This document shows, one piece after another, positions 1 to 19,498 of a stretch of DNA of 64,000 nt. Within the stretch, counting starts at the first letter, position 1. Each line of letters begins with the position of its first letter. The position numbers and the translations under genes are program-made. Source of the stretch: Aquimarina algicola (GTDB lineage Bacteria; Bacteroidota; Bacteroidia; Flavobacteriales; Flavobacteriaceae). The notes below the pieces were generated by a model. The model had not been told where the DNA came from. It saw only the letters and a program-made list of their open reading frames with translations, and did no database searches. Where the stretch lies: NCBI RefSeq assembly GCF_006443095.1, contig NZ_VFWZ01000009.1, forward strand, positions 192,990-256,989. Direction: 5' to 3'.

Positions 1-391
1 AAAAAAACGACCCGAAAAATGTATTGACGTAGAACAAGCAAGAGAACTTCATGACGAATGGTGTTGTACTAGAACCCCACATATTGATAAATGTGTTGGA
101 TTTGAGGATACCAGAGAATTTTGGTGGAGTGTTGAAGATTTGCAAGAATATTTAAAATATGTAAAAAAACAGTCTAAAAAACAGGGTATCAAAGATCCAG
201 GAATAAGGATATATTTAGGGGCTTATCCAAAAGGGAAATGTAAAATGAATAGAGGAAATGCTACTGTTTTTTTAGCTCCGACAGGATCTCCTTTAGGAGA
301 AGTTGGAAAAGGTGGACTTAGTGCACCTAATAATTATGAAATTGCTGCTTTGAATGCTGCTAGTGGTGGTGAGCCAGCAGTTATATATTAG
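1..391 (+). CDS. Hypothetical protein, 5'-truncated by window edge
   Basis: The reading frame is open from base 2 to the TAG at 389-391, so the gene starts before the window and about 129 C-terminal residues are visible. The sequence is Cys-containing (a WCC motif, further Cys nearby) and has a conserved-looking DTREFWWSVEDLQEYLKYV segment. The C-terminal half is rich in Gly, Pro and Ala and ends in GGEPAVIY. I recognise no domain family. It is followed immediately by a membrane protein that overlaps a sensor kinase, so a link with that two-component system is possible, but this rests on position only. An internal TTG at 140 could be mistaken for a start; the frame is open well upstream of it. 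Confidence 0.6.
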   Translation, partial: KKRPEKCIDVEQARELHDEWCCTRTPHIDKCVGFEDTREFWWSVEDLQEYLKYVKKQSKKQGIKDPGIRIYLGAYPKGKCKMNRGNATVFLAPTGSPLGEVGKGGLSAPNNYEIAALNAASGGEPAVIY

Positions 392-395
392 TAAA

Positions 396-1091
396 ATGTT
401 TTATATTTTACTAATAAATTTTTTAGAGCTTCTTTCGTCGATTTTAGGAAGAAACTACGTAGCAAAGTATCGGAATGATAATGGAATCCGATACTTTGTT
501 TACTTTCTTTTTTTTACTTGTTTTGTTGAAGTTTTGGGCTGGTTACCTAGAGGTATTTATTATTTGGAATCTTTTTCTTTTTTGAAAGATACTTTTTTGA
601 AAAGAAATTACTGGTTATATAATATATATTTTATAATAAGTTATACGATTTATGTTTTTTATTTTTATTCACAAGTAAAGTCTACTAAATTTAGAAAAAT
701 TCTTTATTTTATTTTAATATTTTATTCTATAAGTTGTGTTTTAAATATTTTGCTTTCAAAAGTATATTTTAATGCTTATGCATCCTATACTTTTATATTG
801 GGAACTCTTTTTGTTTTTATAAGTGTCGCATTTTATTATTTTGAAATTTTGCAGAGTAATAGAATTTTAACTTTTCATAAATCAATTTCTTTTTATATAT
901 CGATAGGAACATTGGTCTTTCATTTGGCAGTAACTCCACTTTTAATTTACAGTAAATACTTCAATTCGACTAAAAGTCCCGATTTTGTTCAAATTCATCG
1001 AATAATTTTAACTTCTGCAAACATTTTTATGTATACTTGCTATAGCATTGGTTTTATAGTATGTTACCGAAAGAACAAATCTTACTCATAA
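396..1091 (+). CDS. Multi-pass membrane protein of unknown function
   Basis: This 231-residue protein consists largely of hydrophobic, Phe/Tyr/Ile-rich segments consistent with about six to seven membrane helices and short loops. I chose ATG 396 (MFYILLINFLELL), 4 nt after the upstream stop. An earlier in-frame ATG at 354 lies inside the upstream gene and would add an unlikely N-terminus. The 3' end overlaps the start of the next gene (histidine kinase, ATG 1061) by 31 nt, which suggests translational coupling. The kinase has only one membrane helix and no recognisable sensor domain, so this protein is a reasonable candidate for its sensory partner (inference). No family recognised. Confidence 0.65.
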   Translation: MFYILLINFLELLSSILGRNYVAKYRNDNGIRYFVYFLFFTCFVEVLGWLPRGIYYLESFSFLKDTFLKRNYWLYNIYFIISYTIYVFYFYSQVKSTKFRKILYFILIFYSISCVLNILLSKVYFNAYASYTFILGTLFVFISVAFYYFEILQSNRILTFHKSISFYISIGTLVFHLAVTPLLIYSKYFNSTKSPDFVQIHRIILTSANIFMYTCYSIGFIVCYRKNKSYS

Positions 1092-1840
1092 TATATTTTA
1101 CCGTAATAATTTTATTTTTTATCATTTTTGGTATTATATTTTTTATTGCCTTTCAACGACGAAAAAATAAACTTATTTTAGATAAGCTCAAAGCTGAACA
1201 ACGCTTTGAAGACGAGATTTTTAAATCTCGCATAGAAATACAAGAACAAGCGCTAAAAAATGTAAGTTGGGAGTTACATGACAACATTGGTCAATTATTG
1301 TCTACAGCCGTAATGCAAATCAACATTATGCAAACTACTATAGATGATAAAACATCAGAGTCGTTAAACGATGTTCGTAAATTGGTTGGAGATAGCCTTC
1401 AGGAAATACGAAGTTTATCAAAAACATTAAATAACGAAGTGATCCAGAATGTAGGTTTAGAGCAATCAATACGAGTAGAGCTAAAGCGCTTTGAAAAACT
1501 TAATTTTCTTACACCAAGTTTAACTGTAAAAGGAGAAGAGCAATATATAGATCCCAAAGAAGAAATCATTTTATATCGTATTATTCAAGAATTCTTTTCG
1601 AATACGATCAAACATGCAGAAGCTTCACATCTCGATGTAGAGTTATTATATACTCCCAAAAGATTAGATATTCATATACAAGATGATGGTGTAGGTTATG
1701 ATATGAAAACAGTTCAGGCAAACTCAGGATTACTGAATATGAAAAGTCGTGCATCCTTAGTGAATGCTGATTTAGAGTATATTTCTTCTCCAGGCAAAGG
1801 TGTTTTGCTAAAATTATCTTATCCTATTCGTAAAAATTGA
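1061..1840 (+). CDS. Sensor histidine kinase, HisKA_3 (NarL-type) family
   Basis: Inner-membrane kinase of 259 residues. One N-terminal helix (about 7-30) is followed by a short coil, then the HisKA_3 dimerisation segment with SWELHDNIGQ, where His73 is the expected phosphoacceptor. The HATPase_c domain shows an N-box (EFFSNTIKHA) and a G-box (DDGVGYD). There is no periplasmic or PAS sensor domain, so input probably comes from a partner, perhaps the overlapping membrane protein upstream. The cognate regulator is encoded 126 nt downstream. Kinase identity is clear; the stimulus is unknown. Confidence 0.9.
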   Translation: MLPKEQILLIIYFTVIILFFIIFGIIFFIAFQRRKNKLILDKLKAEQRFEDEIFKSRIEIQEQALKNVSWELHDNIGQLLSTAVMQINIMQTTIDDKTSESLNDVRKLVGDSLQEIRSLSKTLNNEVIQNVGLEQSIRVELKRFEKLNFLTPSLTVKGEEQYIDPKEEIILYRIIQEFFSNTIKHAEASHLDVELLYTPKRLDIHIQDDGVGYDMKTVQANSGLLNMKSRASLVNADLEYISSPGKGVLLKLSYPIRKN

Positions 1841-1966
1841 GATTAACGATTACACAATATCAAAATTTTAATGCTTAAAAAATTTTCCTGAGTCCAAAAA
1901 TATTAAGACTTTAGCATAATATGAAAGCATTGATTTCATATCATTAACGGTATAGATAGAGATATT

Positions 1967-2617
1967 ATGAAAAAAAAGACGATTGTAATTGTAGATGATC
2001 ATCTCCTATTTGCCCAATCTTTAGAAAGTTTAATAACGAGACTTGATGATTATTCGGTGTTGGCAATCCTGAAAAATGGAAAAGAGCTTACACAATATTT
2101 TATCCATAAAAGAAAAAAGCCAGATGTTGTATTGTTAGATATTAAAATGCCTGTAATGGATGGGGTACAAACTATGCAATGGCTCAAAGAAAATCGTCCT
2201 GAACAAAAAGTTCTTGCACTAACAATGGAAGATGATGAGGAAACGATTATAAAAATGATTCGTGGTGGAGCAAGAGGATATTTGCTTAAAGATATACATC
2301 CAGAAAATTTTGAATTTGCATTAAAAATGGTAGTAGAACAAGGATTTTTTTATTCTGGAAAAATTTCTAATGCACTTAAAAATTCAGATGGTGCTATTTG
2401 GGGTAACGAATTGCATCAAAAACTAACAGAGAAAGAAAGAAAATTCCTTAAGTATGCTTGTTCAGAACTTACCTACAAGGATATTGCAGAAGAGATGAAA
2501 ATTAGTCCAAAGACTATTGAAAATTATAGAGAAGCTGTTTTCAAAAAACTCGAAGTTAAAACAAGGGTAGGTTTAGTTTTGTATAGTATTAAACATAACC
2601 TTTTTAAGATTGAGTAA
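1967..2617 (+). CDS. Response regulator, NarL/FixJ family
   Basis: Cytoplasmic DNA-binding regulator of 216 residues. The receiver domain (about 4-120) has acidic residues IVDDH near the N-terminus, the phosphoacceptor Asp58 in VVLLDIKMP, a Thr in LALTMED and a Lys in LLKDIHP. The C-terminal LuxR-type helix-turn-helix (about 150-212) contains LTEKERKFLKYACSELTYKD and the recognition-helix region ISPKTIENYREAVFKKL. The gene follows the HisKA_3 kinase, its expected phosphodonor. Downstream lies the ilv leader region, which has its own -7 box and attenuator, so this gene probably ends its own transcription unit, though no separate terminator is seen before the leader peptide. Confidence 0.92.
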   Translation: MKKKTIVIVDDHLLFAQSLESLITRLDDYSVLAILKNGKELTQYFIHKRKKPDVVLLDIKMPVMDGVQTMQWLKENRPEQKVLALTMEDDEETIIKMIRGGARGYLLKDIHPENFEFALKMVVEQGFFYSGKISNALKNSDGAIWGNELHQKLTEKERKFLKYACSELTYKDIAEEMKISPKTIENYREAVFKKLEVKTRVGLVLYSIKHNLFKIE

Positions 2618-2638
2618 TCAAAATTCAAAACTTTTTTC

Positions 2639-2646
2639 TATTTTTG
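2639..2646 (+). promoter_or_regulatory. Candidate -7 box for the ilv leader transcript
   Basis: TATTTTTG matches the Bacteroidota -7 consensus TAnnTTTG exactly. It would start a transcript a few bases before the leader-peptide ATG at 2659. No TTG lies at the ideal spacing upstream (the nearest, at 2610-2612, is too far), so the call is tentative. Confidence 0.35.
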
Positions 2647-2658
2647 ATTTAACATTAT

Positions 2659-2724
2659 ATGAATAACAAAAGAATAAATACTATCGAAGTCATTATTATC
2701 AAAGTGATTCAATCACATTGGTAA
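2659..2724 (+). CDS. ilv operon leader peptide (attenuator)
   Basis: A 21-codon reading frame starts at ATG 2659 and ends at TAA 2722-2724. Six codons are Ile and two are Val, concentrated in the run IEVIIIKVI at codons 9-17. It lies between the upstream regulator gene and ilvD, and a strong intrinsic terminator follows 26 nt after its stop. An Ile/Val-rich leader before an Ile/Val operon is the classical signature of ribosome-mediated attenuation. Slow decoding at the Ile codons would hold the ribosome upstream of the stop codon, which itself lies in the antiterminator arm (2720-2727). A small GTGAT/ATCAC hairpin at 2704-2716 sits within the frame. No strong Shine-Dalgarno is visible, as is usual in this phylum. 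Confidence 0.75.
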   Translation: MNNKRINTIEVIIIKVIQSHW

Positions 2725-2763
2725 AGGCTTCTGTTATATAAAAATATTTAAAATCCCTTTACC
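2720..2763 (+). promoter_or_regulatory. Antiterminator of the ilv attenuator
   Basis: GGTAAAGG at 2720-2727 is exactly complementary to CCTTTACC at 2756-2763, which is the inner 5' arm of the terminator hairpin. Pairing of these two blocks excludes the terminator. The first block overlaps the last sense codon and stop codon of the leader peptide, so a ribosome that finishes the peptide would mask it and allow termination. A ribosome stalled at the Ile codons would leave it free and allow readthrough. Confidence 0.65.
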
Positions 2764-2784
2764 GCCGGTAAAGGGATTTTTTTA
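2751..2784 (+). terminator. Intrinsic terminator of the ilv attenuator
   Basis: A 13-bp perfect stem (2751-2763 with 2767-2779, core CCCTTTACC/GGTAAAGGG) with a 3-nt loop is followed by a T-rich tract. It lies about 270 bp upstream of ilvD and just after the Ile/Val-rich leader frame. It could also end the upstream regulator transcript, but the competing complementary block in the leader argues for attenuation. Confidence 0.85.
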
Positions 2785-3052
2785 TTTCAAAAGGATACAA
2801 AATAAAACACTTTAGAGTCACTATCAATAAAAAATTAACATATAGTGATTGTAAACAAATAGTTTTTAAGTTATTGAAAATCAATTGTTAATAGTGTTTT
2901 GTAGTTCTTTGGATGTTGTAAGAAAATTTATGAAAATGCAAAGATTTAGTGTTAAGCAGATAATTTTACGTAGTAAATTGTTTTTAACGGTAAAAAAGTA
3001 TTGGATTTAAAGTTAAAAAAGTAAATAATCAATAAAAAACTCATAATTAAAG
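2785..3052 (+). other. Untranslated stretch between attenuator and ilvD
   Basis: About 270 bp of AT-rich sequence without a convincing reading frame, hairpin or perfect TAnnTTTG box. It is probably the remaining ilvD 5' untranslated region. I see nothing further in it. Confidence 0.4.
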
Positions 3053-4729
3053 ATGAGCATCAACAAATATAGCAAACAAGTAACCCAAGATGATACACAA
3101 CCTGCAGCTCAGGCAATGTTACATGCAATTGGTTTGACAGAAGATGATTTTAAGAAACCTTTTGTAGGGATAGCAAGCACAGGTTACGAAGGGAATCCTT
3201 GTAATATGCACCTTAATGATCTTGCTAAATTAGTGAAACAAGGTACAGAAGAAGAAAATGTTGTAGGACTTATATTCAATACCATAGGTGTAAGTGATGG
3301 GATTTCTATGGGAACTCCAGGAATGAGGTTTTCATTACCATCTCGCGACGTAATTGCAGATTCTATGGAAACCGTTGTACAAGCCATGTCTTATGATGGA
3401 ATGGTCACAGTAGTAGGGTGTGACAAAAATATGCCCGGTGCATTGATGGCGATGCTAAGACTTAATCGTCCTTCCATTTTGGTGTATGGTGGTACTATTG
3501 CTTCAGGATATCATTCAGGAAAAAAACTAGATGTTGTCTCTGCATTTGAAGCTTGGGGAGAAAAAGTAGCAGGAACAATTACACAAAAAGAATACCAAAA
3601 TGTTATAGAAAAAGCATGTCCAGGTGCAGGAGCTTGTGGCGGGATGTATACGGCTAACACAATGGCTTCTGCAATAGAAGCTTTAGGAATGTCATTGCCC
3701 TATAATTCTTCAAACCCTGCAATAAGTAGAGATAAAGAAGAAGAGAGTATAGCAGCCGGGCAAGCAATGCGATTGTTGCTAGAAAAAGATATTAAACCAA
3801 AAGATATTGTAACCAAAAAGTCTATAGAAAACGCAATACGTTTGATCACGATTCTGGGAGGTTCTACAAATGCAGTATTACATTTTCTTGCAATAGCGAG
3901 AGCCGCCGATGTAGAGTTCACTCTGGCAGATTTTCAGAGAATTAGTGACGAGACTCCTTTTCTTGCAGATTTAAAACCAAGCGGAAAATACTTGATGGAA
4001 GATGTACATAATGTAGGAGGAATACCTGCTGTCCTTAAGTATTTATTGAGAAAAGGATTATTGCATGGAGATTGCTTAACGGTAACTGGGAAAACACTAG
4101 CAGAAAATTTATTAGAAGTTCCTGATCTTACAGAAGGACAAGATGTGATTAAACCATTAGAAAACCCTATAAAGCAGACCGGACATCTTAGAATTATGTT
4201 TGGAAATCTTGCCAAAGAAGGATGTGTCGCCAAAATCACTGGTAAAGAAGGGCTTCGTTTTCAAGGGAAAGCCAAAGTATTTGAAGGTGAATATGAAGCA
4301 AATGATGGTATAAAGAGTGGAAAAGTAACAAAAGGTGATGTTGTTGTAATACGATACGAAGGTCCAAAAGGAGGCCCCGGCATGCCAGAAATGTTGAAAC
4401 CAACAGCTGCGATAATGGGGGCAGGCCTGGGAAAAGATGTTGCTTTAATCACAGATGGTAGATTTTCTGGCGGAACTCATGGTTTTGTAGTAGGTCATAT
4501 TACACCAGAAGCACAAGAAGGAGGAGTGATTGCATTAATAGAAGATGGAGATATCATTACAATCGATGCAGAGTCTAATACTATTAAAGTAGATGTAAAT
4601 ACTGAAGAATTAGAAAAAAGAAAAGCGTTATGGGTGCAACCACCATTAAAATTCGATAGAGGGGTATTGTATAAATATGCACATACCGTCTCTTCGGCAT
4701 CACAAGGATGTGTTACAGATGAATTCTAA
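3053..4729 (+). CDS. ilvD: Dihydroxy-acid dehydratase
   Basis: Dehydrates 2,3-dihydroxy-isovalerate and 2,3-dihydroxy-3-methylvalerate to the 2-keto acids of valine and isoleucine synthesis; a cytoplasmic Fe-S enzyme. The length of 558 residues is normal for the IlvD/Edd family. Cysteines expected to hold the cluster are visible at Cys50 ([11 protein letters not shown]), Cys123 ([10 protein letters not shown]) and Cys195 ([14 protein letters not shown]). The C-terminal region shows the conserved [22 protein letters not shown]. The start fits flavobacterial homologues ([20 protein letters not shown]). It is the first structural gene of the ilv operon, placed after the attenuator; ilvB follows 117 nt downstream without a visible terminator. 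Confidence 0.97.
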
Positions 4730-4846
4730 AAACATATCGGTGTTTATGATGTAAATTTTAATAATTATTATTTCAGCAAAAGCTGGAAACTTAAAGAGTC
4801 TCATGTTTTGATATAAACAGAATAGACTCCAAAATACAACAAGCGT

Positions 4847-6580
4847 ATGGAAACACAAACGCGAACTTTAAGAAAAGAAACAAAAATAACAACAGAGAGA
4901 ATGACGGGTGCAGAAGCTGTAATAAGATGTCTATTAGCAGAAAATGTAGACCTGATTTATGGATACCCGGGAGGAGCCATAATGCCGGTTTATGATGAAT
5001 TATATAAATATCAAGACCAGTTACATCATGTTCTGACAAGACATGAACAAGGTGCTACACACGCTGCACAAGGATATGCAAGAACAAGTGGAAAAGTAGG
5101 AGTAGCCATAGCAACATCAGGACCCGGAGCAACAAATTTTGTAACAGGAATTGCAGATGCTCAAATCGATTCTACTCCTTTGGTTTGTATTACAGGACAA
5201 GTAGGGTCTCATTTGTTAGGCTCAGATGCATTTCAAGAAACTGATATTATTGGAATTTCTACTCCTATAACCAAATGGAACCATCAAGTCACCAAAGCAG
5301 AAGATATCCCTTCGGTATTGGCTAAAGCATTCTACATTGCACGATCAGGTCGACCCGGTCCGGTTTTGGTTGATATTACAAAGGATGCACAGTTTGGAGA
5401 ATTAGATTTTGAGTATAAAAAATGTAAAGGTGTACGCAGTTATAAACCAGTTCCTGAAACTGATCCAAAAAGCCTTAATGAAGCATCAAGATTAATTAAT
5501 AATGCAAAAAAACCAATGATTGTTTTTGGGCAGGGAGTTATTCTTGGTAAAGCTGAAGAAGAATTAAAAAACTTTGTAGAAAAATCAGGAATTCCTGCAG
5601 CATGGACAATTTTAGGATTATCTGCGTTACCAACAGCACATCCATTAAATGTTGGTATGGTAGGGATGCATGGCAATTATGGACCAAATCGATTAACAAA
5701 TCAGTGTGACTTACTGATTGCTATTGGAATGCGTTTTGATGATCGTGTTACCGGAAACTTAGAAACATATGCTAAGCAAGCAAATATTATACATTTTGAA
5801 ATAGATCCGGCAGAAGTAAATAAAAATGTGAAGGCAGATGTAGCTGTTATGGGAGATGTTAAACACACGCTCTCTCAGGTTTTACCACTTATAGAAAAAG
5901 ATTCATATGACTCATGGGTTCAAGAATTTAGAGATCATGATGCTATAGAGTTCGAAAAAGTAATTAAAACTGAATTGTTTCCCGAAAAAGAAGGACTTTC
6001 TATGGGAGAGGTGCTCAAAAGTATAAATAAAGAAACTCATGGGGATGCAATTATAGTGTCTGATGTTGGACAGCATCAAATGATAGCATGTAGATATGCC
6101 GAGTTTACAACATCAAAAAGTAATGTCACTTCGGGAGGATTAGGAACAATGGGATTTGCGCTTCCAGCTGCAATTGGAGCCAAAATGGGGGCCCCAAATA
6201 GAGAAGTTGTTGCAATAATCGGTGATGGAGGATACCAAATGACAATACAAGAACTTGGAACTATTTTCCAAACAAAAGTACCTGTTAAAATCGTGGTTTT
6301 GAACAATGATTTTTTAGGTATGGTAAGACAATGGCAACAATTATTTTTTGATAAAAGGTATGCTTCTACAGAAATGGTAAATCCAGATTTTATCAAAATA
6401 GCAGAAGGATATCATATCAAATCCAAAAGAGTAACAAAAAGAGAAGAATTACAAGATGCTGTAAATGAGATGATAAAAAGTACAGAGTCTTATTTTCTTG
6501 AAGTATGTGTTGAGAAAGAAAATAATGTGTTTCCTATGATTCCCACAGGCGCATCAGTATCTGATATAAGATTAGAGTAG
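4847..6580 (+). CDS. ilvB: Acetolactate synthase, large (catalytic) subunit
   Basis: Condenses two pyruvates to acetolactate, or pyruvate with 2-ketobutyrate to acetohydroxybutyrate, using ThDP, Mg2+ and FAD. The 577-residue protein has the N-terminal ThDP domain with YGYPGGAIMPVYDEL and the catalytic Glu67 in TRHEQGATHAAQGYAR. A central domain follows, then the C-terminal ThDP/Mg2+-binding stretch starting GDGGYQMTIQELGTI and ending in NND. The regulatory subunit ilvN starts 3 nt after its stop, so the two are co-translated. Confidence 0.97.
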   Translation: METQTRTLRKETKITTERMTGAEAVIRCLLAENVDLIYGYPGGAIMPVYDELYKYQDQLHHVLTRHEQGATHAAQGYARTSGKVGVAIATSGPGATNFVTGIADAQIDSTPLVCITGQVGSHLLGSDAFQETDIIGISTPITKWNHQVTKAEDIPSVLAKAFYIARSGRPGPVLVDITKDAQFGELDFEYKKCKGVRSYKPVPETDPKSLNEASRLINNAKKPMIVFGQGVILGKAEEELKNFVEKSGIPAAWTILGLSALPTAHPLNVGMVGMHGNYGPNRLTNQCDLLIAIGMRFDDRVTGNLETYAKQANIIHFEIDPAEVNKNVKADVAVMGDVKHTLSQVLPLIEKDSYDSWVQEFRDHDAIEFEKVIKTELFPEKEGLSMGEVLKSINKETHGDAIIVSDVGQHQMIACRYAEFTTSKSNVTSGGLGTMGFALPAAIGAKMGAPNREVVAIIGDGGYQMTIQELGTIFQTKVPVKIVVLNNDFLGMVRQWQQLFFDKRYASTEMVNPDFIKIAEGYHIKSKRVTKREELQDAVNEMIKSTESYFLEVCVEKENNVFPMIPTGASVSDIRLE

Positions 6581-6582
6581 TT

Positions 6583-7119
6583 ATGGAAAAAGAAAATTTT
6601 ACAATTTCGGTATATACCGAAAATAATATAGGATTATTAAATAGAATATCTGCAATTTTTTTAAAACGTCATATCAACCTTGATAGTATGACAGCTTCAC
6701 AATCAGAGATCAAAGATGTATTTCGATTTACTATAGCTGTAAAGGTAACCGAAGAACAAGTCAAAAAAATCGTAGGGCAAATAGAGAAACAAATAGAAGT
6801 CATTAAGGCATTTTATCATAAAGAAGAACAAATTATTTATCAGGAAACAGCACTATTTAAAGTAGCATCAAAATTATTGTTTGAAGAACGACAAATTCAA
6901 AACGTTATCAAGAATAGTAATTCAAACATAGTAACGGTAACGCCCGAATTTTTTGTTTTAGAAAAAACAGGAAGAAGAAGAGAAGTCGATGCATTATATC
7001 GTAAACTCGAACCTTATGGATTAATGCAGTTTACAAGATCAGGCAGAATTGCGGTTACCAAAGAAAAGATGCACATATCTAAAATTTTAGAAAACTTTGC
7101 TCCAGAAGAGCTACTATAA
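6583..7119 (+). CDS. ilvN: Acetolactate synthase, small (regulatory) subunit
   Basis: Regulatory partner of IlvB that confers valine feedback control and raises activity. The 178-residue length is normal. An N-terminal ACT domain (about 6-80) begins FTISVYTENNIGLLNRISAI, with the typical IGLLNRI ligand-binding turn. The C-terminal half (about 85-170) matches the ALS small-subunit C domain, ending RSGRIAVTKEKM. The ATG lies directly after the ilvB stop. Confidence 0.95.
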   Translation: MEKENFTISVYTENNIGLLNRISAIFLKRHINLDSMTASQSEIKDVFRFTIAVKVTEEQVKKIVGQIEKQIEVIKAFYHKEEQIIYQETALFKVASKLLFEERQIQNVIKNSNSNIVTVTPEFFVLEKTGRRREVDALYRKLEPYGLMQFTRSGRIAVTKEKMHISKILENFAPEELL

Positions 7120-7228
7120 ATTTGTAATATCCAGATGTTTTGAGAACAATCTTGAAATATTAAAAACAACTATAAATCAAAATTAAATTCCTTTTTCAGA
7201 AGGAAATAACAACAAATTAAAGAAGGAA

Positions 7229-8704
7229 ATGGCAAATTATTTTAATACGCTATCATTAAGAGACCAATTAACACAACTAGGAAAATGTAGGTTTATGGAG
7301 TCTCAAGAGTTTTTAAAAGGAGTAGAAGCACTTGAGGGGAAAAACATTGTAATCGTTGGTTGTGGTGCACAAGGACTCAATCAAGGGTTAAATATGAGAG
7401 ACTCGGGTTTACATATTTCTTATGCACTGCGAGAAGCTGCTATAAAAGAACAAAGACAATCATTCAAAAATGCGTCAGATAACGGATTTAGTGTAGATAC
7501 GTATGAAAAACTTATTCCAGATGCAGATGTAGTTATTAATTTGACTCCAGATAAACAACACACACAAGTGGTGAATACAGTAATGCCTCTTATGAAAAAA
7601 GGGGCAACATTATCGTATTCGCATGGATTTAATATTGTAGAAGAAGGGATGCAGGTTAGAGATGATCTTACTGTTATTATGGTAGCACCAAAATGCCCCG
7701 GATCAGAAGTGAGAGAAGAATATAAAAGAGGTTTTGGAGTACCAACTTTGATAGCTGTACATCCCGAAAATGATCCTCAGGGACACGGTTTAGAACAAGC
7801 AAAAGCATATGCAGTTGCCACTGGTGGTGATAGAGCAGGAGTACTAGAATCTTCTTTTGTAGCAGAGGTGAAATCAGACCTCATGGGAGAACAAACTATC
7901 TTATGTGGATTATTACAAACAGGTTCTATTTTGAGTTTTGATAAAATGATTGAAAAAGGAATTGATCCCGGTTACGCTTCAAAACTGATTCAATATGGTT
8001 GGGAAACGATAACTGAAGGTTTAAAATATGGAGGGATAACCAATATGATGGATCGATTATCAAATCCTTCTAAGATTAAGGCTTTTGAACTTGCTGAAGA
8101 GTTAAAAGACATTATGCAACCACTTTTTCAAAAGCATATGGACGATATTATTTCTGGTCATTTTTCAAAAACGATGATGGAAGATTGGGCTAATGATGAT
8201 AAAAATTTACTTACATGGAGAAGTGAAACTGCCGAAACTGCTTTTGAGAAAACACCAGCCGGAGATATTGAAATTTCAGAACAAGAATTCTATGATCACG
8301 GAGTGCTAATGGTAGCGTTTGTAAGAGCTGGTGTAGAGTTAGCTTTTGAAGCAATGACAGATTCTGGAATCATAGAAGAGTCAGCATATTACGAATCACT
8401 ACACGAAACACCTCTTATTGCGAATACAATTGCACGCAAAAAACTATATGAGATGAATCGTGTTATCTCTGATACTGCAGAATATGGTTGCTATTTATTT
8501 GATCATGCATGTAAACCTCTTTTAACTGATTTTATGAGCAAAATAGATATTGATGTTATTGGTAAGGCATATGATCAGGATAAAAGTAATGAAGTTGATA
8601 ATGCAAGATTAATAGAAATAAACACGGCAATTAGAAATCATCCAATAGAAAAAATTGGAGCAAGACTTAGAACTTCTATGACAGCTATGAAACCTATTTT
8701 TTAA
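7229..8704 (+). CDS. ilvC: Ketol-acid reductoisomerase, class II (long form)
   Basis: Converts acetolactate and acetohydroxybutyrate to dihydroxy acids with NADPH and Mg2+. The 491-residue length matches the class II (E. coli-like) enzyme, not the roughly 330-residue class I form. The Rossmann glycine motif is [21 protein letters not shown], followed by the knotted domain in duplicate, as seen from [18 protein letters not shown] and a second acidic-rich repeat near residues 350-470. The start has an upstream AAGGA (7223-7227) acting as ribosome-binding site. It is the fourth gene of the ilv operon; the 109-bp gap after ilvN has only a weak hairpin. Confidence 0.97.
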
Positions 8705-8838
8705 TCTTTTAATACATTAAATAAGAATTAGTTTTTGTCTGGCCGGATCTGTTAGAGTTTTTGAGATGTGTATTGTGTAACCTTTGATGGATCTTGGCTG
8801 ACAAGAATTTAAAATATAGTGATAGGCTTAATTTAACC

Positions 8839-10104
8839 ATGAGCACCATAACCACAACATATTTTCCAGAGTTAGAAGACATTCAAAAAGCAGCTACTTC
8901 AATTAAAAAAGTAGCGATGGTCACTCCTTTGATGAATAGTATTAGATATTCAAATAGATATGATGCTAATATTTTATTAAAGAGAGAAGATATTCAAAGA
9001 GTACGGTCATATAAAATTAGAGGAGCTTTTAATAAAATTAGCTCACTTTCTAAAGAACAACTAAAACAAGGTGTTGTTTGTGCTAGCGCCGGTAATCATG
9101 CACAAGGTGTTGCTTTTGCTTGTAACCATCTAGGTATAAAAGGAACAATTTATATGCCCTCTGTCACTCCAAAACAAAAAGTAGAGCAAACACAAATGTT
9201 TGGTGGTGATTTTGTAAATATTGTTTTAGAGGGAGATACCTTTGATGATTCGTCTAAAGCAGCTATGCAGGTTTGCAAAACAGAAGGTAAAACTTTTGTA
9301 CACCCTTTTGATGACCCAAAAACGATAGAAGGGCAAGGAACAATAGGATTAGAAATATTCAAACAAGTCGATGTACCTATTGATTATATATTTGTTGCAA
9401 TAGGAGGAGGAGGACTTGCCTCTGGTTTATGTGGTGCAATGAAAGCATTATCACCAAAAACTAAAATCATTGGTATTGAACCACAAGGAGCGCCTTCAAT
9501 GCTCACATCTATCCAAAATAATAAGAATACAGAAATATTTGATATCGATAAATTTATAGATGGCGCAGCAGTACAAAAAGTAGGAAACTTAAATTTTGAA
9601 ATTTGTAAAGAATATTTATCAGATATGTTTACCGTTCCCGAAGGATTGGTGTGTCAAACTATTCTAGATTTATATAACCGAGATGCTATAGTGGTTGAAC
9701 CTGCAGGTGCTTTAACTTTGGCTGCTCTTGAGTTTTATAAAGAAAAAATTAAAGGAAAAAATGTTGTTTGTATCGTAAGTGGTAGTAATAATGATATAAC
9801 CCGTACTGCAGAAATAAAAGAAAGAGCTTTATTGTATGCTAACTTGAAACACTATTTTATTGTTCGTTTTCCACAAAGAGCAGGTGCATTAAAACAGTTT
9901 GTAGGAAAAGTTTTAGGCCCCAATGATGATATTACTCACTTTGAATATTCAAAAAAATCAAGTAGAGAAAATGCTCCCGCAGTGGTTGGCATTGAATTAA
10001 AGGATGAAAAAGATTTGGAACCACTTATCAAAAGAATGAAAGCGCTTAATTTTTTTGGAGACTACCTTAATGACAAACCTGATCTCTTTCAGTTTTTGAT
10101 ATAA
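8839..10104 (+). CDS. ilvA: Threonine ammonia-lyase (biosynthetic threonine deaminase)
   Basis: Makes 2-ketobutyrate from threonine, the committed step to isoleucine. The catalytic PLP domain (about 1-320) has the Schiff-base lysine in RVRSYKIRGAFNKI and the phosphate-binding glycine loop in FVAIGGGGLASGL. A single C-terminal ACT-like regulatory domain (about 335-421) begins HYFIVRFPQRAGALKQFVG, so it is the short one-ACT type rather than the two-ACT E. coli form. I chose ATG 8839 (MSTITTTYFPELEDI, 421 residues); an upstream in-frame TTG at 8794 would add 15 non-conserved-looking residues. It is the last gene of the operon, and no leu genes follow. Confidence 0.94.
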   Translation: MSTITTTYFPELEDIQKAATSIKKVAMVTPLMNSIRYSNRYDANILLKREDIQRVRSYKIRGAFNKISSLSKEQLKQGVVCASAGNHAQGVAFACNHLGIKGTIYMPSVTPKQKVEQTQMFGGDFVNIVLEGDTFDDSSKAAMQVCKTEGKTFVHPFDDPKTIEGQGTIGLEIFKQVDVPIDYIFVAIGGGGLASGLCGAMKALSPKTKIIGIEPQGAPSMLTSIQNNKNTEIFDIDKFIDGAAVQKVGNLNFEICKEYLSDMFTVPEGLVCQTILDLYNRDAIVVEPAGALTLAALEFYKEKIKGKNVVCIVSGSNNDITRTAEIKERALLYANLKHYFIVRFPQRAGALKQFVGKVLGPNDDITHFEYSKKSSRENAPAVVGIELKDEKDLEPLIKRMKALNFFGDYLNDKPDLFQFLI

Positions 10105-10310
10105 TTACAAAAAAAGCGTTGCTTCTTGCTCGCAAATCACCAATTAAAGTAATAATACATCTTATTTGTTTTAATCTAATAGACAACATTTTAGTTCGGT
10201 TAATTCTAGATAACTAAGGTAGTATTGTTAATTTTTTTATGATAAAAATTAGGTTATTTGTTTTTTGTCGATATATTTATGCTTTTAAACGATAAAAAAC
10301 TTAATCTATT

Positions 10311-10874
10311 ATGAAAAAATTATTACTTTTTGTTGCAGTAGCTTTGTTAGGCATTACAGCTTCGAATGCACAGGTTAAATTTGGTTTTGGTCTTGGATAT
10401 GCAGTTCCTACAGGAGATGTTGCTGACTTTACAGACGGTGGTATTTCAGGTCACTTAGAGTTGGGATATGGTATTACAGACCAAATTGATGTATCTTTCT
10501 TATACACTGGCGACTTTTTAGTTGGAGCGGATTTAACTTCTGGAAATAATTTTGTAGATACAAATGCATCTATTGGAAATGTAACTATCGGTAGTTATAT
10601 GTTGAATGGGCGTTACTATTTCACAGAATCTGGTTTTAGGCCTTATGGTAGTCTTGGTTTAGGTATTGCAAGTATTGGCTCTATCGAAATCGATGGAACA
10701 AATGCTGAATTATTTGCAAGTACGTCTAACTTCGCAATTCGCCCTGCATTAGGTTTCAAATATGGGGTATTAAATGTAAATGCTGCATATTTGAGTGCTG
10801 GTAAAACAGGAGAAACTTCTGTAAGTGACTTTTCATTTAATTTAGGACTATTATTTACTTTTGGAGGTAACTAA
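10311..10874 (+). CDS. Outer-membrane beta-barrel protein
   Basis: A 187-residue exported protein. The signal peptide MKKLLLFVAVALLGITASNAQ ends at an ANAQ-like cleavage site. The rest alternates polar and hydrophobic residues in Gly/Tyr-rich strands (FGFGLGYAVPTGDVADF, YGITDQIDVSFLYTGDFL, PYGSLGLGIASIG) and ends in a strand with terminal aromatic residues (LGLLFTFGGN). This is typical of small 8-stranded barrels of the OmpW/Opacity-like group. Function unknown. It is monocistronic: a 206-bp gap precedes it and an intrinsic terminator follows 25 nt after the stop. Confidence 0.85.
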   Translation: MKKLLLFVAVALLGITASNAQVKFGFGLGYAVPTGDVADFTDGGISGHLELGYGITDQIDVSFLYTGDFLVGADLTSGNNFVDTNASIGNVTIGSYMLNGRYYFTESGFRPYGSLGLGIASIGSIEIDGTNAELFASTSNFAIRPALGFKYGVLNVNAAYLSAGKTGETSVSDFSFNLGLLFTFGGN

Positions 10875-10898
10875 TAATTAAAACATATCTTAAAGAAT

Positions 10899-10932
10899 AA
10901 CCCCTTACTATAAATTTAGAAAGGGGTTTTTT
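10899..10932 (+). terminator. Intrinsic terminator after beta-barrel gene
   Basis: The stem AACCCCTT (10899-10906) pairs with AAGGGGTT (10921-10928) across a 14-nt AT-rich loop and runs into six Ts. It lies between convergent genes and may partly serve the minus-strand operon ending at 11013. Confidence 0.8.
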
Positions 10933-11012
10933 GATTATTGTGAAATTAACAAGACTAAAAATTTTAAATCTAGGGAATCACATAACAAACGTCACAATAG
11001 ATCAATTCATTT

Positions 11013-11681
11013 TTATTTTAAAGAGGCTATGATTTTAATAGACTTTTTTGTCATTGATGTTATGCTTTTATAATCATACGCACCAATATCATTTTTGATG
11101 ATTAACTTAGAGCCCATACCAACACAATGTGCTCCGGCTGAAAACCAGCTATTTAAATTCTCTTTCTCAGGCGTTACTCCACCACTTGGCATGATACTAG
11201 ACCAAGGACAAGGTGCTTTTATACTTTTTATAAAATCAGGGCCGCCGACCTGACTTGCAGGAAATATTTTTACAACTTCTGCTCCTAATTCTTCTGCATA
11301 ATTGATTTCACTTAATGTAGCGCATCCAGGCAACCAACTTATTTTTCTTCGGTTACATACTTTTGCTATATCAGGATTTAAGATTGGCGATACTATAAAA
11401 TTGGTTCCCTTTTGTATAAAAATAGAAGCTGTTCCTGCATCTACAATAGAGCCAACTCCTAAAATCATTTCAGGTAAGTTGTCAGTGACCCATTTTGATA
11501 ATTCTGCAAATAAATCATCTGCATAGTCTCCTCGATTTGTAAACTCGAAGACTCTTGCACCACCATCATAGCATGCTTGAATTACTTTTTTAACTATTGT
11601 AATATCTTCATGATAAAATAAAGGAACTATTCCTGTATTCTTCATTGTTTCTGTAACCTGTATTCTGGTATATTGTGCCAT
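11013..11681 (-). CDS. eda: KDPG (2-dehydro-3-deoxy-phosphogluconate) aldolase
   Basis: Cleaves KDPG to pyruvate and glyceraldehyde-3-phosphate, the last step of alginate monomer catabolism. The 222-residue class I aldolase has the family Glu in VFEFTNRGDYADD, the Schiff-base Lys in GAEVVKIFPASQVGG, and the phosphate-binding segment IMPSGGVTPEKENLNSWF. It starts 4 nt after the stop of kdgK and is the last gene of the MFS-SDR-kdgK-eda operon. A dual 4-hydroxy-2-oxoglutarate aldolase activity is common in the family. Confidence 0.95.
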   Translation of the reverse strand: MAQYTRIQVTETMKNTGIVPLFYHEDITIVKKVIQACYDGGARVFEFTNRGDYADDLFAELSKWVTDNLPEMILGVGSIVDAGTASIFIQKGTNFIVSPILNPDIAKVCNRRKISWLPGCATLSEINYAEELGAEVVKIFPASQVGGPDFIKSIKAPCPWSSIMPSGGVTPEKENLNSWFSAGAHCVGMGSKLIIKNDIGAYDYKSITSMTKKSIKIIASLK

Positions 11682-11685
11682 TTAC

Positions 11686-12690
11686 TTATCTTAAAATTCT
11701 TCCTGATAGATTACCTTGAATGATACTAATGATTTCTTTTTCTGTTACAAGATTAGCATCACCTTCTATAGTATGTTTCAATGCACAAGCAGCATTTGCA
11801 AATTCTAATGCTTTTGCATCATCATAATGTAGAAGTCCATGAATTAGACCGGCAGCATAAGCATCACCAGTACCAATTCTATCTACTACATGAGTGATTT
11901 CTAATTCTTTTGTCTCAGTAAATTCTGTACCATTCCACATTCTAGCTTTAATTTTATGCCAATTTGCGTTTAATGAAGTTCTGGTTTTGTCAAATACTTT
12001 AGTTAGATTAGTATGTTCTTTGATTATATGTTTGGCTCCTTTTATAAAATCATCATTTTGATTGGTATAAGAAGTTCCTAACAATTCATTGATTTCATTT
12101 GGCCCTCCAATAAATATATTAGATAATGCTACCAATTCATTAAGTGTATCTATCGCATTTTTTCCATAATTCCATAAATCACTTCTATAAGCTGGATCTG
12201 CAGAAATGGTAATACCTTTTTTTGAAGCAATTTGTAAACCCTCTTTTAATGCTGAATATGTATTGTTTGATAGGGCAGGGGTGATACCGGTCCAATGAAA
12301 CCAATTACAATCTTTAAAAGCAACATCCCAATCGATTTGAGATACATCTATATTGCAAAATGCAGAATTGATTCTATTATATGAAATGATACTAGATCTC
12401 ATAACAGCACCAGCCTCTAAGAAATATATTCCTAGAGGATGATGAGAATCCATTATTAAACTAGTATCCACTCCATATTGTTGTAAGTAGTTTTTTACTG
12501 CTTTTCCAACAAAATCTTCAGAAACAGTAGTAATATGTTGTGTTTTATTTCCTAATTGAGAAAGTGAAATAGCAACATTAGCTTCGGTACCTCCAAAGTA
12601 GTATTCTAATTGGTTAGACTGATTTAATTTTTTGTTGCCAATAGGAGCAATACGCATTAAAATTTCTCCAAAGGTTACTACTTTGTTCAT
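11686..12690 (-). CDS. kdgK: 2-keto-3-deoxygluconate kinase (PfkB family)
   Basis: Phosphorylates KDG to KDPG with ATP. The 334-residue ribokinase-fold protein has the N-terminal VVTFGEILMRIAP, a substrate-binding FGGTEANVAISLSQLG, and the C-terminal PfkB signature DRIGTGDAYAAGLIHG, whose GTGD carries the catalytic Asp. Neighbours supply its substrate (SDR reductase upstream) and use its product (eda downstream), which makes the KDG assignment firm within the PfkB family. Confidence 0.94.
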   Translation of the reverse strand: MNKVVTFGEILMRIAPIGNKKLNQSNQLEYYFGGTEANVAISLSQLGNKTQHITTVSEDFVGKAVKNYLQQYGVDTSLIMDSHHPLGIYFLEAGAVMRSSIISYNRINSAFCNIDVSQIDWDVAFKDCNWFHWTGITPALSNNTYSALKEGLQIASKKGITISADPAYRSDLWNYGKNAIDTLNELVALSNIFIGGPNEINELLGTSYTNQNDDFIKGAKHIIKEHTNLTKVFDKTRTSLNANWHKIKARMWNGTEFTETKELEITHVVDRIGTGDAYAAGLIHGLLHYDDAKALEFANAACALKHTIEGDANLVTEKEIISIIQGNLSGRILR

Positions 12691-12726
12691 GTCAGGAAAT
12701 TCTGTTATTTTGATATTGATATGATT

Positions 12727-13488
12727 TTAAATTCCTAAAGCTTGTCCTCCACCGATTTGAATAGTTTCGGCTGTCAAAAATGCAGCATCTGTACTTGCAA
12801 GAAAAGAAACAACAGAAGCTACATCTTCTGGTTGCCCCAATCTTCCTAATAAGATATTATTTTTCCAGGAAGCAAAAACTTCAGGTTTTGTAGATTTAAT
12901 TTGTTCATGAAAAGGAGTGTCAATAGTTCCTGGAGATACGGCATTTACTCTGATTCCATATTCGGCTAAATCTTTTGCTAATGCTCTTGTTATGGCATGA
13001 ACTGCTGCTTTTGAAGTTCCATAAATTCCGGCTCCCGGTCCTCCGGCGGTCCATCCTGCGTTAGAAGTATAGTTTATGATAGAAGCATTTTCTCCTTTTT
13101 TGAGAAATGGAATGGCTGCTCTTGAGGCAAAGAATGTCGAATCCAGATTTAATGCCATCACAGATCGATAAAATTCTGTTGTCATTTCTTCAAATCTTGA
13201 TCTTCCGCCTAATCCTCCGGCATTATTTACCAATACGTCGATTTTACCAAATTTCTCTCCAATGGCATTTATGTTTGAAGTTACTGCTTCTTCATTGGTC
13301 ACATCAAACCCATAGTACTCAGCGGTTATTCCTGCTTCAGTAAGTTCTTTTACTTTTTGTGCGCCTTTATCATCTTCTATACCGTTCAAAATTACAGTAT
13401 ATCCATCTTTTCCTAGTCTTTTTGCAACTCCGAAACCAATACCACTGGTAGCTCCGGTAACAACGGCAATTTTTGCTTTTGAATTCAT
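12727..13488 (-). CDS. SDR oxidoreductase, probable DEH reductase
   Basis: Probably reduces 4-deoxy-L-erythro-5-hexoseulose uronate (DEH), the linear alginate monomer, to 2-keto-3-deoxygluconate. The 253-residue classical SDR has the cofactor motif VTGATSGIGFGVAKRLG, NNAGG, the catalytic Tyr-Lys in IYGTSKAAVHA and the C-terminal FLASTDAAFLTAETIQIGGG. The dinucleotide preference cannot be fixed by eye. Position between the MFS transporter and kdgK, in an alginate locus with all other pathway enzymes, is the main reason for the substrate assignment. KduD-like pectin function is the alternative, but no pectin genes are present. Confidence 0.85.
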   Translation of the reverse strand: MNSKAKIAVVTGATSGIGFGVAKRLGKDGYTVILNGIEDDKGAQKVKELTEAGITAEYYGFDVTNEEAVTSNINAIGEKFGKIDVLVNNAGGLGGRSRFEEMTTEFYRSVMALNLDSTFFASRAAIPFLKKGENASIINYTSNAGWTAGGPGAGIYGTSKAAVHAITRALAKDLAEYGIRVNAVSPGTIDTPFHEQIKSTKPEVFASWKNNILLGRLGQPEDVASVVSFLASTDAAFLTAETIQIGGGQALGI

Positions 13489-13544
13489 CTTTTTTATGGT
13501 ATTAATTTTAAATTATTTTATTAATTAAATTTTTCTATTGATTA

Positions 13545-14846
13545 TTAATTTTTTGATGTTAAGGGCTCAATTTTAGAACATAAAACCCATACACTTGCCA
13601 GTGCGATTAATGCCAATGCAGCACCAATAATAAAAGCCGGAGTATAGTTTCCTCCCATAGTTAACCATGGAACCAAATATGTTAGCCCGGCTGCTGTAAG
13701 CTTTGCTGCCATTCCTGAAAAACCAGCAAGAGTTCCTACTGTTTTACCACTGAAAAAATCGCTGGGTAATGTTTGTACGTTACCAATTGCAGTTTGAAAA
13801 CCAAAAAGAATTACTGCCATGATTAATACTGCTGTAACAGGTGCACCAGGATTGGCCATAGCTAATAATGAAGGTAACATAATCAAGCATCCGATCGTAA
13901 TAACCATTTTGCGAGTTTTGTTTACACTCCAACCGGCTTTTAATCGATTTTGTGCGAGTAATCCCCCAAACCAAGCGCCAAGCATTGCACCCACATAAGG
14001 AACCCAACCGTAGATGCCAATACCTTTTACATCCATATTGTATACTTCTGATAAATAAATAGGAATCCAAAACACAAATAACCACCAAATAGGATCTATT
14101 GCAGCAGATGAAATGATAACACCCCAGCTTTGTTTATGAGAAAGTAACTCTTGAGTATTTGGTTCATATACTTCGTTAGTGTCGTCACCTGTATTAGGAT
14201 TTTGGTTCTTCTGTCCGGTTAAAATATATTCGCGTTCTTCTTTTGTTATCCAAGGGTGTTTTTTTGGTGGGGATTTCACCAAAAATAACCAAGGAATCAG
14301 CCAAAGTAATCCTACAATACCGATCAATATAAAAATAGCTTGCCAACTATAGTATACAGTAAGGAATGCAATTAGCGGTATAGAAATAATACCTCCTATA
14401 GCTGCACCTGAGTTGAATAATCCTTGAGCAAAGGCACGTTCTTTGGTGGGAAACCACTCTGCATTTCCTTTTGCGGCTCCTGGCCAGTTCCCGGCTTCAG
14501 ATATTCCTAAAATTGACCGAAAGAATGCAAAACTTCCAAAAGAAGTAGCTAATGCATGCAAAGCAGTCGAAATAGACCATACACCTATTGATAATACAAA
14601 CCCAAGTCGTGTACCAACCCAGTCAAATATTTTACCAAAAATGGCTTGTCCAAAGGCGTATGAAAAGACGAAAATTATAGAAATCCAAGAATAGATCTCT
14701 TTTCGTTCATCATTAGACTTATCCGGATATAGTTCTTCTGAGATTTCTGGCCATAGAACATTGAGCGATTGCCTATCAATATAATTGATTACAGTTGCTA
14801 AGGCTATTAGTCCTATTACCCACCATCTTAATCCTTTAACTTTCAT
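13545..14846 (-). CDS. MFS transporter, hexuronate/anion:cation symporter type
   Basis: Inner-membrane permease of 433 residues with 12 predicted helices. The N-terminus KGLRWWVIGLIALATVINYIDRQSL is characteristic of the ExuT/anion:cation symporter family, with the YIDRQSL segment after helix 1. It is the first gene of the operon with the DEH reductase, KdgK and Eda, so it very probably imports unsaturated monouronate or DEH from the periplasm. The promoter region carries the palindrome at 14924-14940 rather than the TTGGTnnACCAA sites of the other alginate operons. Confidence 0.9.
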   Translation of the reverse strand: MKVKGLRWWVIGLIALATVINYIDRQSLNVLWPEISEELYPDKSNDERKEIYSWISIIFVFSYAFGQAIFGKIFDWVGTRLGFVLSIGVWSISTALHALATSFGSFAFFRSILGISEAGNWPGAAKGNAEWFPTKERAFAQGLFNSGAAIGGIISIPLIAFLTVYYSWQAIFILIGIVGLLWLIPWLFLVKSPPKKHPWITKEEREYILTGQKNQNPNTGDDTNEVYEPNTQELLSHKQSWGVIISSAAIDPIWWLFVFWIPIYLSEVYNMDVKGIGIYGWVPYVGAMLGAWFGGLLAQNRLKAGWSVNKTRKMVITIGCLIMLPSLLAMANPGAPVTAVLIMAVILFGFQTAIGNVQTLPSDFFSGKTVGTLAGFSGMAAKLTAAGLTYLVPWLTMGGNYTPAFIIGAALALIALASVWVLCSKIEPLTSKN

Positions 14847-14923
14847 ATTTTTAGTTTAGTTAAAGAGATTTTTGAGAAAAGTTTTACTTTTCTTTTACTA
14901 AAGCCATTAAACTTCTAGATTAA

Positions 14924-14940
14924 ATATGGGGTATCCATAT
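14924..14940. promoter_or_regulatory. Palindrome upstream of the MFS/kdg operon
   Basis: ATATGGGGTATCCATAT has perfect 6-bp arms (ATATGG/CCATAT) around 5 bp. It lies about 80-95 bp before the MFS start, in a region with no perfect -7 box. The TGG-N5-CCA spacing differs from the N4 spacing of the FadR-type sites in this locus, so a different regulator is possible. Confidence 0.35.
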
Positions 14941-14998
14941 AAATGTTGTAGTGTATGGTTTAAGTATAAATCCCTCCTTAAATATTTTTGATTTGTAG

Positions 14999-15025
14999 CA
15001 AAAAATAGAAGCGTGCAATTCTATC
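14999..15025 (-). terminator. Intrinsic terminator after the first GntR gene
   Basis: Read on the minus strand, ATAGAA and TTCTAT (15024-15019 with 15010-15005) form a short stem, extended by a G-U pair, with an 8-nt loop, and run into six Us. It lies 22 nt after the regulator stop and implies that the MFS operon has its own promoter. Confidence 0.6.
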
Positions 15026-15046
15026 TTTTGTATTTAGATTTTATAA

Positions 15047-15751
15047 TTATTTTTGATTGTAACAATATTGGTATAGTGCTTTAAAATGCATTTTCATTTT
15101 TTCTTTTGCCAATTTTGGATTTTGTTGTTTGATAGAATCGTATATATCTGTATGTTCTTGAATTCCTAAAAATGCTTGATTACTGTCACATACATGATAT
15201 TTTTCAAAATTTGTTATGATACCCGGGGTAATAATGAGCATGAGTGTATTCATTGTACTGTTACCACTAGCTTTTGCTATTGCTAAATGAAAGAGTAAAT
15301 CTTCTTGAACAGCGTCTTCACCCTTTAGTACTTTTTTAGAGTATGCATCTAAAGCTTCTTTTATAGATTTTAAGTCATCATCAGTTCTTCTTAAAGCAGC
15401 TAATCTGGCAGTTTTGAGTTCTAGCAAAATACGAGTCTCAACCAATGATTTAAATTCAGGGTCTTCTAATCTTAATATATCTTCGATCATACCATTCATA
15501 GCAATCACACCAATATTAGCAACAAAAGTTCCACTTTGTGGAATAGATTCTAATATTCCATAAAACTCAAGTTTTTGAATTGCCTCTCTGATGCTACCTC
15601 TACTAACTTCAAATTTTTCAGATAAGGTTCTCTCAGACGGAAGCTTATCACCAGGTTCTAAGTTTTTATAATTAATTAAATCTCTGATTTTCCTTATGAT
15701 TTCCTTCTGGATATCCTTATTCTCGTTTTTGGTTAAGATTTCTAATTTCAT
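15047..15751 (-). CDS. FadR-family GntR regulator of the alginate locus (copy 1)
   Basis: Transcription factor of 234 residues. The N-terminal winged helix-turn-helix is typical FadR/GntR (LEPGDKLPSERTLSEKF, recognition helix VSRGSIREAIQKLEFYG). The C-terminal all-alpha FCD ligand domain (about 80-225) contains LVETRILLELKTARLAA and metal/ligand residues such as His in DLLFHLAIAKAS. An in-frame ATG at 15799 would extend the protein by 16 residues, but that stretch is the promoter and operator (15775-15804), so ATG 15751 is preferred. The operator suggests autoregulation. It is clearly paralogous to the regulator at 28252-28950. Confidence 0.92.
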   Translation of the reverse strand: MKLEILTKNENKDIQKEIIRKIRDLINYKNLEPGDKLPSERTLSEKFEVSRGSIREAIQKLEFYGILESIPQSGTFVANIGVIAMNGMIEDILRLEDPEFKSLVETRILLELKTARLAALRRTDDDLKSIKEALDAYSKKVLKGEDAVQEDLLFHLAIAKASGNSTMNTLMLIITPGIITNFEKYHVCDSNQAFLGIQEHTDIYDSIKQQNPKLAKEKMKMHFKALYQYCYNQK

Positions 15752-15774
15752 GGTTAATGTTGGTTTATAAATAA

Positions 15775-15799
15775 TTGGTTGACCAGATTGGTTTTCCAA
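15775..15799. promoter_or_regulatory. Tandem FadR-type operator before GntR copy 1
   Basis: Two palindromes, TTGGTTGACCAG (15775-15786) and TTGGTTTTCCAA (15788-15799), are repeated with a 13-bp step. The second overlaps the -7 box. They match the TTGGTnnACCAA sites before susC, the PL6 gene and the PL7-CBM32 gene, suggesting autoregulation. Confidence 0.65.
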
Positions 15800-15804
15800 A
15801 TTTA
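15797..15804 (-). promoter_or_regulatory. -7 box of the GntR copy 1 promoter
   Basis: On the minus strand this reads TAAATTTG, a perfect TAnnTTTG, and its TTTGG overlaps the operator palindrome. No clear -33 TTG is seen. Confidence 0.5.
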
Positions 15805-15866
15805 TGAAATTATTCGTTACTAAAAAATCTATTTTCTTAGTATGTTTATTTTTTATGGTGAATTGA

Positions 15867-15899
15867 GTTTGCTATTCTAATATAATTAGAATAGCAAAC
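15867..15899 (-). terminator. Long hairpin after the PL7 gene, probable terminator
   Basis: A perfect 14-bp stem, GTTTGCTATTCTAA with TTAGAATAGCAAAC, has a 5-nt loop. It lies 75 nt downstream of the PL7 stop on the minus strand and upstream of the regulator promoter. There is no uridine tract on either strand, so it could end the susC-susD-PKD-PL7 transcript, stabilise its 3' end, or insulate the two units. Confidence 0.5.
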
Positions 15900-19488: not shown

Positions 19489-19498
19489 GGTTAATATT

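Follow-up and report, generated by a model that had tools for sequence, protein, structure and literature searches.

Ribosome-mediated attenuators of amino-acid operons

The classical attenuators of the E. coli trp, his and ilvGMEDA operons combine a leader peptide with a 1:2 protector, a 2:3 antiterminator and a 3:4 terminator. A model of this ribosome-mediated attenuation of amino-acid operons is available (PMC1183508). For F. psychrophilum, a member of the same family as the organism considered here, clues to leader-peptide attenuation of amino-acid operons have been reported and the same general mechanism proposed (PMC9723704), so the remark in the initial annotation that there is no standard description for Flavobacteriia was too strong. 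The main text of that report contains the term "ilv" 0 times and describes no tandem, unlike the ilv element here. From the same phylum, the Rfam family RF01692 (Bacteroid-trp) is trp-specific, unlike the ilv region discussed below.

A single attenuator is described as the norm for nutrient biosynthesis genes (PMC3641672). The same source describes tandem attenuators in Salmonella mgtCBR, where two short ORFs occur in series in one leader mRNA, as in the Flavobacteriaceae ilv tandem; in mgtCBR, however, the ORFs respond additively to two signals (ATP and proline), and the stem-loops are unlike intrinsic terminators. The dual attenuators of mefA/msrD, termed a "double-lock" against basal expression, resemble the ilv tandem in having two leader peptides and one signal, but these are antibiotic arrest peptides, and the mefA gene separates the attenuators, which are not adjacent in one leader (PMC10314930). 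Tandem amino-acid leader attenuators in the phylum Bacteroidetes were not found in any title or abstract opening among the open-licence papers listed.

The element analyzed here lies in a window of 64,000 nucleotides from Aquimarina algicola (contig NZ_VFWZ01000009.1, positions 192,990 to 256,989). Like the E. coli trp, his and ilvGMEDA attenuators, it has a leader rich in codons for the pathway product, a 1:2 protector, a 2:3 antiterminator and a 3:4 terminator, which precedes the first gene. It differs from them in that the ilv antiterminator core holds the leader stop codon, the start is predicted to be near-leaderless, the leader encodes Ile and Val with little Leu, and many relatives of the window genome have two units in series, while the window has one. 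By prediction, the antiterminator depends on ribosome position, and the element is conserved with covariation. We consider it very likely that this is a ribosome-mediated transcription attenuator that senses the supply of isoleucine (and valine) for ilvDBNCA, an element that is tandem in many relatives and whose other unit was probably lost here. Sequence, conservation, covariation and predicted folds support this reading, from which we infer promoter activity, leader translation, termination, a response to Ile/Val and loss of the second unit. The window's single unit looks like an attenuator of an ordinary, known kind, and what is new is the same-signal tandem. A single ilv attenuator could have been published before, because an attenuation survey by Lopatovskaya and colleagues (cited in PMC4833913) may cover Bacteroidetes.

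The ilv locus of Aquimarina algicola

The ilv genes were named from curated NCBIfam models with scores above the cut-offs. The genes upstream of the leader match a response regulator and a histidine kinase best, with NCBIfam scores below the model cut-offs. The features of the locus are as follows.

2639..2646, + strand: TATTTTTG, which fits the flavobacterial −7 box TAnnTTTG and ends 12 nt 5′ of the leader ATG
2659..2724, + strand: leader peptide ORF MNNKRINTIEVIIIKVIQSHW, 21 codons with 6 Ile and 2 Val (run IEVIIIKVI), from the ATG at 2659 to the TAA stop codon at 2722-2724
2686..2731, + strand: protector (1:2) hairpin, leader codons with the stop region, from the minimum free energy (MFE) fold
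2720..2727, + strand: region 2, GGTAAAGG, antiterminator strand including the leader stop codon, from sequence and duplex energy
2752..2783, + strand: intrinsic terminator AATCCCTTTACC-GCC-GGTAAAGGGATT (2752-2778) plus a run of 7 T (2777-2783), −15.8 kcal/mol
2756..2763, + strand: region 3, CCTTTACC, inner 5′ arm of the terminator and partner of 2720-2727, from sequence, duplex energy and permutation test
2785..3052, + strand: stretch of 268 nt from terminator to ilvD, parts conserved in the Aquimarina alignment, no second attenuator detected
3053..4729, + strand: ilvD, dihydroxy-acid dehydratase (TIGR00110, 758 bits, cut-off 618)
4847..6580, + strand: ilvB, acetolactate synthase large subunit (TIGR00118, above cut-off)
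6583..7119, + strand: ilvN, acetolactate synthase small subunit (TIGR00119, above cut-off)
7229..8704, + strand: ilvC, ketol-acid reductoisomerase (NF003557, above cut-off)
8842..10104, + strand: ilvA, threonine ammonia-lyase (NF006390, above cut-off); the ATG at 8842 is preferred, and a longer TTG frame from 8794 is also possible

The initial annotation had placed a 21-codon frame with 6 Ile and 2 Val between the previous gene and ilvD, and the sequence agrees, with the coordinates right. Its 13-bp terminator is a fair description of a stem that reaches 14 when 2 flanking A-T pairs are added, and the exact complementarity that it claimed for 2720-2727 and 2756-2763 holds: GGTAAAGG and CCTTTACC are exact reverse complements, with a duplex energy of −12.2 kcal/mol. 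In the MFE fold, leader codons at 2686-2708 are paired with the stop region at 2712-2731 (2686-2691/2726-2731, 2696-2702/2718-2724 and 2704-2708/2712-2716). The fold of the 171-nt region has an energy of −37.3 kcal/mol, compared to −21.06 ± 3.39 for shuffles (z = −4.79).

A scan of the whole window for pairs of leader and terminator (−11 kcal/mol or better) returned the ilv leader as the sole amino-acid-like one; four other frame matches, at three places in the window, have no amino-acid run. Rfam covariance models gave 0 matches in window positions 1-20000. On 2600-3060, no family reached its gathering score, the best being RF02634 (36 bits, cut-off 100), and RF01692 did not match the ilv region of the window.

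Predicted switch states

In the attenuator model, transcription would start just 5′ of the leader. When charged tRNA-Ile/Val is ample, the ribosome would proceed to the stop codon and cover region 2, and the terminator would form; if translation slows at Ile/Val codons, the ribosome would remain on region 1, leaving region 2 free to pair with the 5′ arm of the terminator, and RNA polymerase would read through. Without a ribosome, the leader codons would pair with region 2, resulting in termination by default. In tandem genomes, which include most Aquimarina examined and some other Flavobacteriaceae, read-through would have to succeed twice, because two Ile/Val-rich units occur in series.

We modeled stalling on an RNA ending before the 3′ arm of the terminator, assuming that the 11 nt 3′ of the A-site codon are covered by the ribosome. 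For the window, placing the A site at codons 6-17 gives a predicted antiterminator occupancy of 0.61-0.69 (0.687 as the median over Ile/Val codons); the value is 0.06-0.09 with the ribosome at codons 2-5, and 0.02 with the A site at the stop codon. With no ribosome it is predicted to be 0.046, a low value explained by pairing of the leader codons themselves with the stop region. Since shuffling the order of synonymous codons lifts this prediction to 0.542, codon choice in the window's leader is predicted to maintain the protector hairpin and a default OFF state. The initial annotation had described a compact one-switch attenuator; its antiterminator switch is present in these models, but it is not bare, as the protector hairpin adds a state, and the predicted device is a classical three-state attenuator.

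Loci sampled and detection of units

We collected 211 ilvD-upstream loci including the window, of which 177 are unique by identity of the last 500 nt, in three partly overlapping sets. Of 66 genus genomes searched, 64 matched ilvD, and 50 of these make up the genus set, the window's own genome included. In the family, 314 of 397 genomes matched, 3 of them in the genus; the family set consists of 80 of the other 311, mostly one per genus, chosen by hand among the best matches listed. The named set contains the best 80 of 558 confirmed ilvD matches and leans to close relatives; the closest loci among these 80 are from Aquimarina, with protein identity up to 92%.

The loose detector, run on up to the last 1500 nt of the 177 unique sequences, called an ATG frame of 12-48 codons with at least 6 Ile/Val/Leu in 10 and a stop no more than 100 nt from a terminator. 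A strict unit additionally shows pairing between stop region and terminator arm. Strict tandems have a duplex of −7 kcal/mol or better in both units and a spacing of 5-260 nt, and narrow failures (e.g., genus loci L115 and L123) were scored as not tandem.

A putative promoter before the first leader

The sequence TATTTTTG upstream of the leader matches TAnnTTTG, reported as the flavobacterial −7 promoter consensus (PMC9723704). Of the 110 unique strict-unit loci, 33 have an exact match no more than 40 nt 5′ of leader 1, compared to 1/67 for leader 2 and 265/10,599 background windows of 40 nt. Relaxing the box gives 57/110, 8/67 and 761/10,599, respectively; 48 of the 57 relaxed matches end 7-10 nt before the leader 1 ATG, and about half of the 110 loci have no relaxed box before leader 1. 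Exact matches lie between the two units in 2 of 79 loci, and between unit 2 and ilvD in 7 of 57, at scattered positions. The positions and counts of the box suggest one promoter for both units and a very short 5′ UTR, just a few nucleotides long, ahead of leader 1. Flavobacteria are reported to be without Shine-Dalgarno sequences (PMC9723704).

We regard as unlikely the alternative that the conserved stretch at 2785-3052 is an operator or promoter that carries most ilvD transcription, leaving the attenuator a minor role. Parts of this stretch (TAGTGATTGTAAA, TTGGATATTGTAAG and AAATAATTTTAT) are conserved in an alignment of 20 loci that come almost entirely from Aquimarina, and these blocks are possibly protein-binding sites or an internal promoter; no consensus RNA fold was predicted for the stretch from the same 20 loci. 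It is also long for a 5′ UTR, the median being given as 24 bp in F. psychrophilum (PMC9723704), and a promoter at the exact TAnnTTTG found after unit 2 in some loci would bypass the switch. However, in this check, which covered the TAnnTTTG type only, those matches are confined to 7/57 loci and scattered, in contrast to the nearly fixed spot before leader 1.

Conservation and covariation in relatives

The loose detector found a single unit in 45 and a pair in 80 of the 177 unique loci, 125 loci in all, and no unit in the other 52. Among 531 dinucleotide shuffles, the same detector found one unit in 2 and two units in 0, and among the reverse complements one unit in 28/177 and two in 0; given these reverse-strand matches, the single-unit calls include some false positives. 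At least one strict unit is present in 47 of the 50 genus genomes (3 lack one), in 59/80 named loci (best 80 of 558) and in 34/80 other family genomes. The units move with the ilv genes, lying before ilvD in Aquimarina and approximately 1.1-1.4 kb 5′ of it in most Tenacibaculum loci, with one gene between that reads as ilvE.

The pairing that defines the putative antiterminator is also conserved. The duplex of stop region and terminator arm averages −9.96 kcal/mol versus −5.87 for shuffled stop regions, and the real stop region beats its own shuffles in 198/207 units. Terminator arms vary among loci (CCCTTTAC, CTCCCTTC, GCCTTCC, GCCTGTATC and others), and the stop regions change in step. When arms were permuted within Aquimarina, the real pairing was better than 500/500 permutations for the first as well as the second position (n = 51 and 42, respectively), in statistics that, like the shuffle and Wilcoxon ones, ignore the kinship of the loci.

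The predicted switch recurs across units, with an antiterminator occupancy of 0.733 at the best Ile/Val/Leu stall versus 0.096 when the stop codon occupies the A site; the predicted difference between stall and stop exceeds 0.2 in 198 of 206 units. Mean predicted occupancies over 177 units are 0.438 free, 0.739 stalled and 0.609 with codon order shuffled; the free value is below the codon-shuffled one in 144 of these units, and 33/177 are without a codon-order effect.

These results bear on a rival explanation, in which the hairpin does no more than terminate the upstream response-regulator gene and the Ile/Val frame arose by chance from a high AT content. That gene ends at 2617 on the same strand, approximately 135 nt 5′ of the hairpin, and Ile codons are abundant in AT-rich DNA; nevertheless, the units recur with ilv genes across many genomes, shuffles almost never yield leader and terminator together, and neither covariation of stop region and arm nor synonymous-codon effects would be expected of a plain terminator, all of which makes this explanation very improbable. 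That the leader encodes a small protein or an arrest peptide that acts in its own right, and is no supply sensor, is scarcely credible, because its sequence is highly variable while its Ile/Val content stays, as codon sensing predicts, even if the leader is conserved and one leader peptide has been reported active beyond attenuation (PMC7298713).

The supply-sensing attenuator thus remains the preferred reading. As the initial annotation had proposed, we compared the regions upstream of ilvD in relatives: the Ile/Val frame is kept, as is the pairing, with compensating changes. Conservation, covariation and predicted folds all lend good support to its identification of an Ile/Val leader-peptide attenuator upstream of the ilv genes.

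Probable tandem attenuators in the Flavobacteriaceae

Two complete units in series, each with its own Ile/Val leader and its own terminator, form strict tandems in 37/50 genus genomes, in 14/80 other family genomes (12 genus labels) and in 36/80 named loci (best 80 of 558). The window's genome has a single unit, and 12 other genus genomes of the 50 fail the strict tandem definition, some narrowly. In the 67 unique strict tandems, terminator 1 and the second ATG are a median of 21 nt apart (range 11-180). The pair is located approximately 1.1-1.5 kb 5′ of ilvD in most Tenacibaculum loci (not L039) and in two Gelidibacter loci, as well as in one Kordia locus, where it was loosely detected.

The two units of a tandem are similar in composition and differ in their switches. 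Leaders contain 34.4% Ile, 12.3% Val and 3.7% Leu in unit 1 and 36.8% Ile, 14.0% Val and 3.6% Leu in unit 2; because this make-up is nearly equal, both leaders should sense the same Ile/Val supply. The two 9-nt arms are identical in 0/67 unique strict tandems. Of 50 tandem rows in the named and family sets, 29 are from outside Aquimarina, and in these the first arm is of the CTTCC type in 27/29 and the second of the CTGTATC type in 29/29; 20 of the remaining 21 have CCCTTT first and CCCTTC second. Where a locus has exactly two usable units (79 loci), the pairing within units is stronger than the pairing after a swap in 72 (summed mean −20.7 versus −14.6 kcal/mol) and 7 go the other way.

In a tree of ilvD from the window and the 80 named loci (best 80 of 558), tandems are present in 36/81 and are clustered, mainly in Aquimarina, Tenacibaculum, Gelidibacter/Bizionia and Ulvibacter. 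Tandem state changes 12 times, compared to 26.6 for shuffled states, with 0 of 500 shuffles as low, on a quick, midpoint-rooted tree with many weak forks. The tandem may go back to an early stage of the family, with repeated losses since then, as in the window's genome, from which the second unit has probably been lost, because the single unit there is of the first type.

Our reading, likely if held with less assurance than that of the single unit, is that many Flavobacteriaceae, above all Aquimarina, regulate Ile/Val synthesis by a two-stage "double lock" of two complete, non-interchangeable, same-signal attenuators in series on one transcript.

Other leaders in the genome and the class

Other amino-acid leaders are found in the window's own genome. 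Upstream of a hisG match (L241), a His leader, MKNLFIHHHHSYISAQAW (HHHH), is followed by a terminator as a single unit, and upstream of a trpE-like chorismate-binding gene (L243) there is a Trp leader, MNFILTNNWWWNSRNENVVR (WWW), with a terminator. The trp leader matches RF01692 Bacteroid-trp with 61.2 bits (cut-off 49). No such leader was found in the stretches at the leuA-like and homoserine-dehydrogenase loci of this genome (L242, L244 and L245).

At the class level, 119 genomes were searched, 32 had a match, and these provided the upstream DNA of 22 ilvD loci, including one from the same family. In 10/22, a terminator lies near a frame in which Ile/Val/Leu make up 7 or more of 10 residues, a raw count without a chance control. 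Loci L221, L224, L225, L229 and L246, likewise without a chance control, have a single Ile/Val/Leu-rich frame and then a terminator 5′ of ilvD; all but L224 are from other families of the class. One further locus from another family of the class, L238, has two Ile/Val-rich units of leader and terminator 5′ of ilvD, so the tandem may reach beyond the Flavobacteriaceae.

Implications for ilv regulation

With the ilv leader, textbook attenuation reaches the ilv genes of a phylum from which it has seldom been described. If the double lock is correct, a second unit would square the basal leak, which the stop codon within the antiterminator strand could make worse; the leaks of two successive units would multiply, and the response would become steeper. 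The tandem would be a natural design that repeats one sensor in series and gives the two copies different, mostly self-matched switches. Since a single genus includes both one-unit and two-unit species, the value of doubling for leak, steepness and dynamic range is directly testable.
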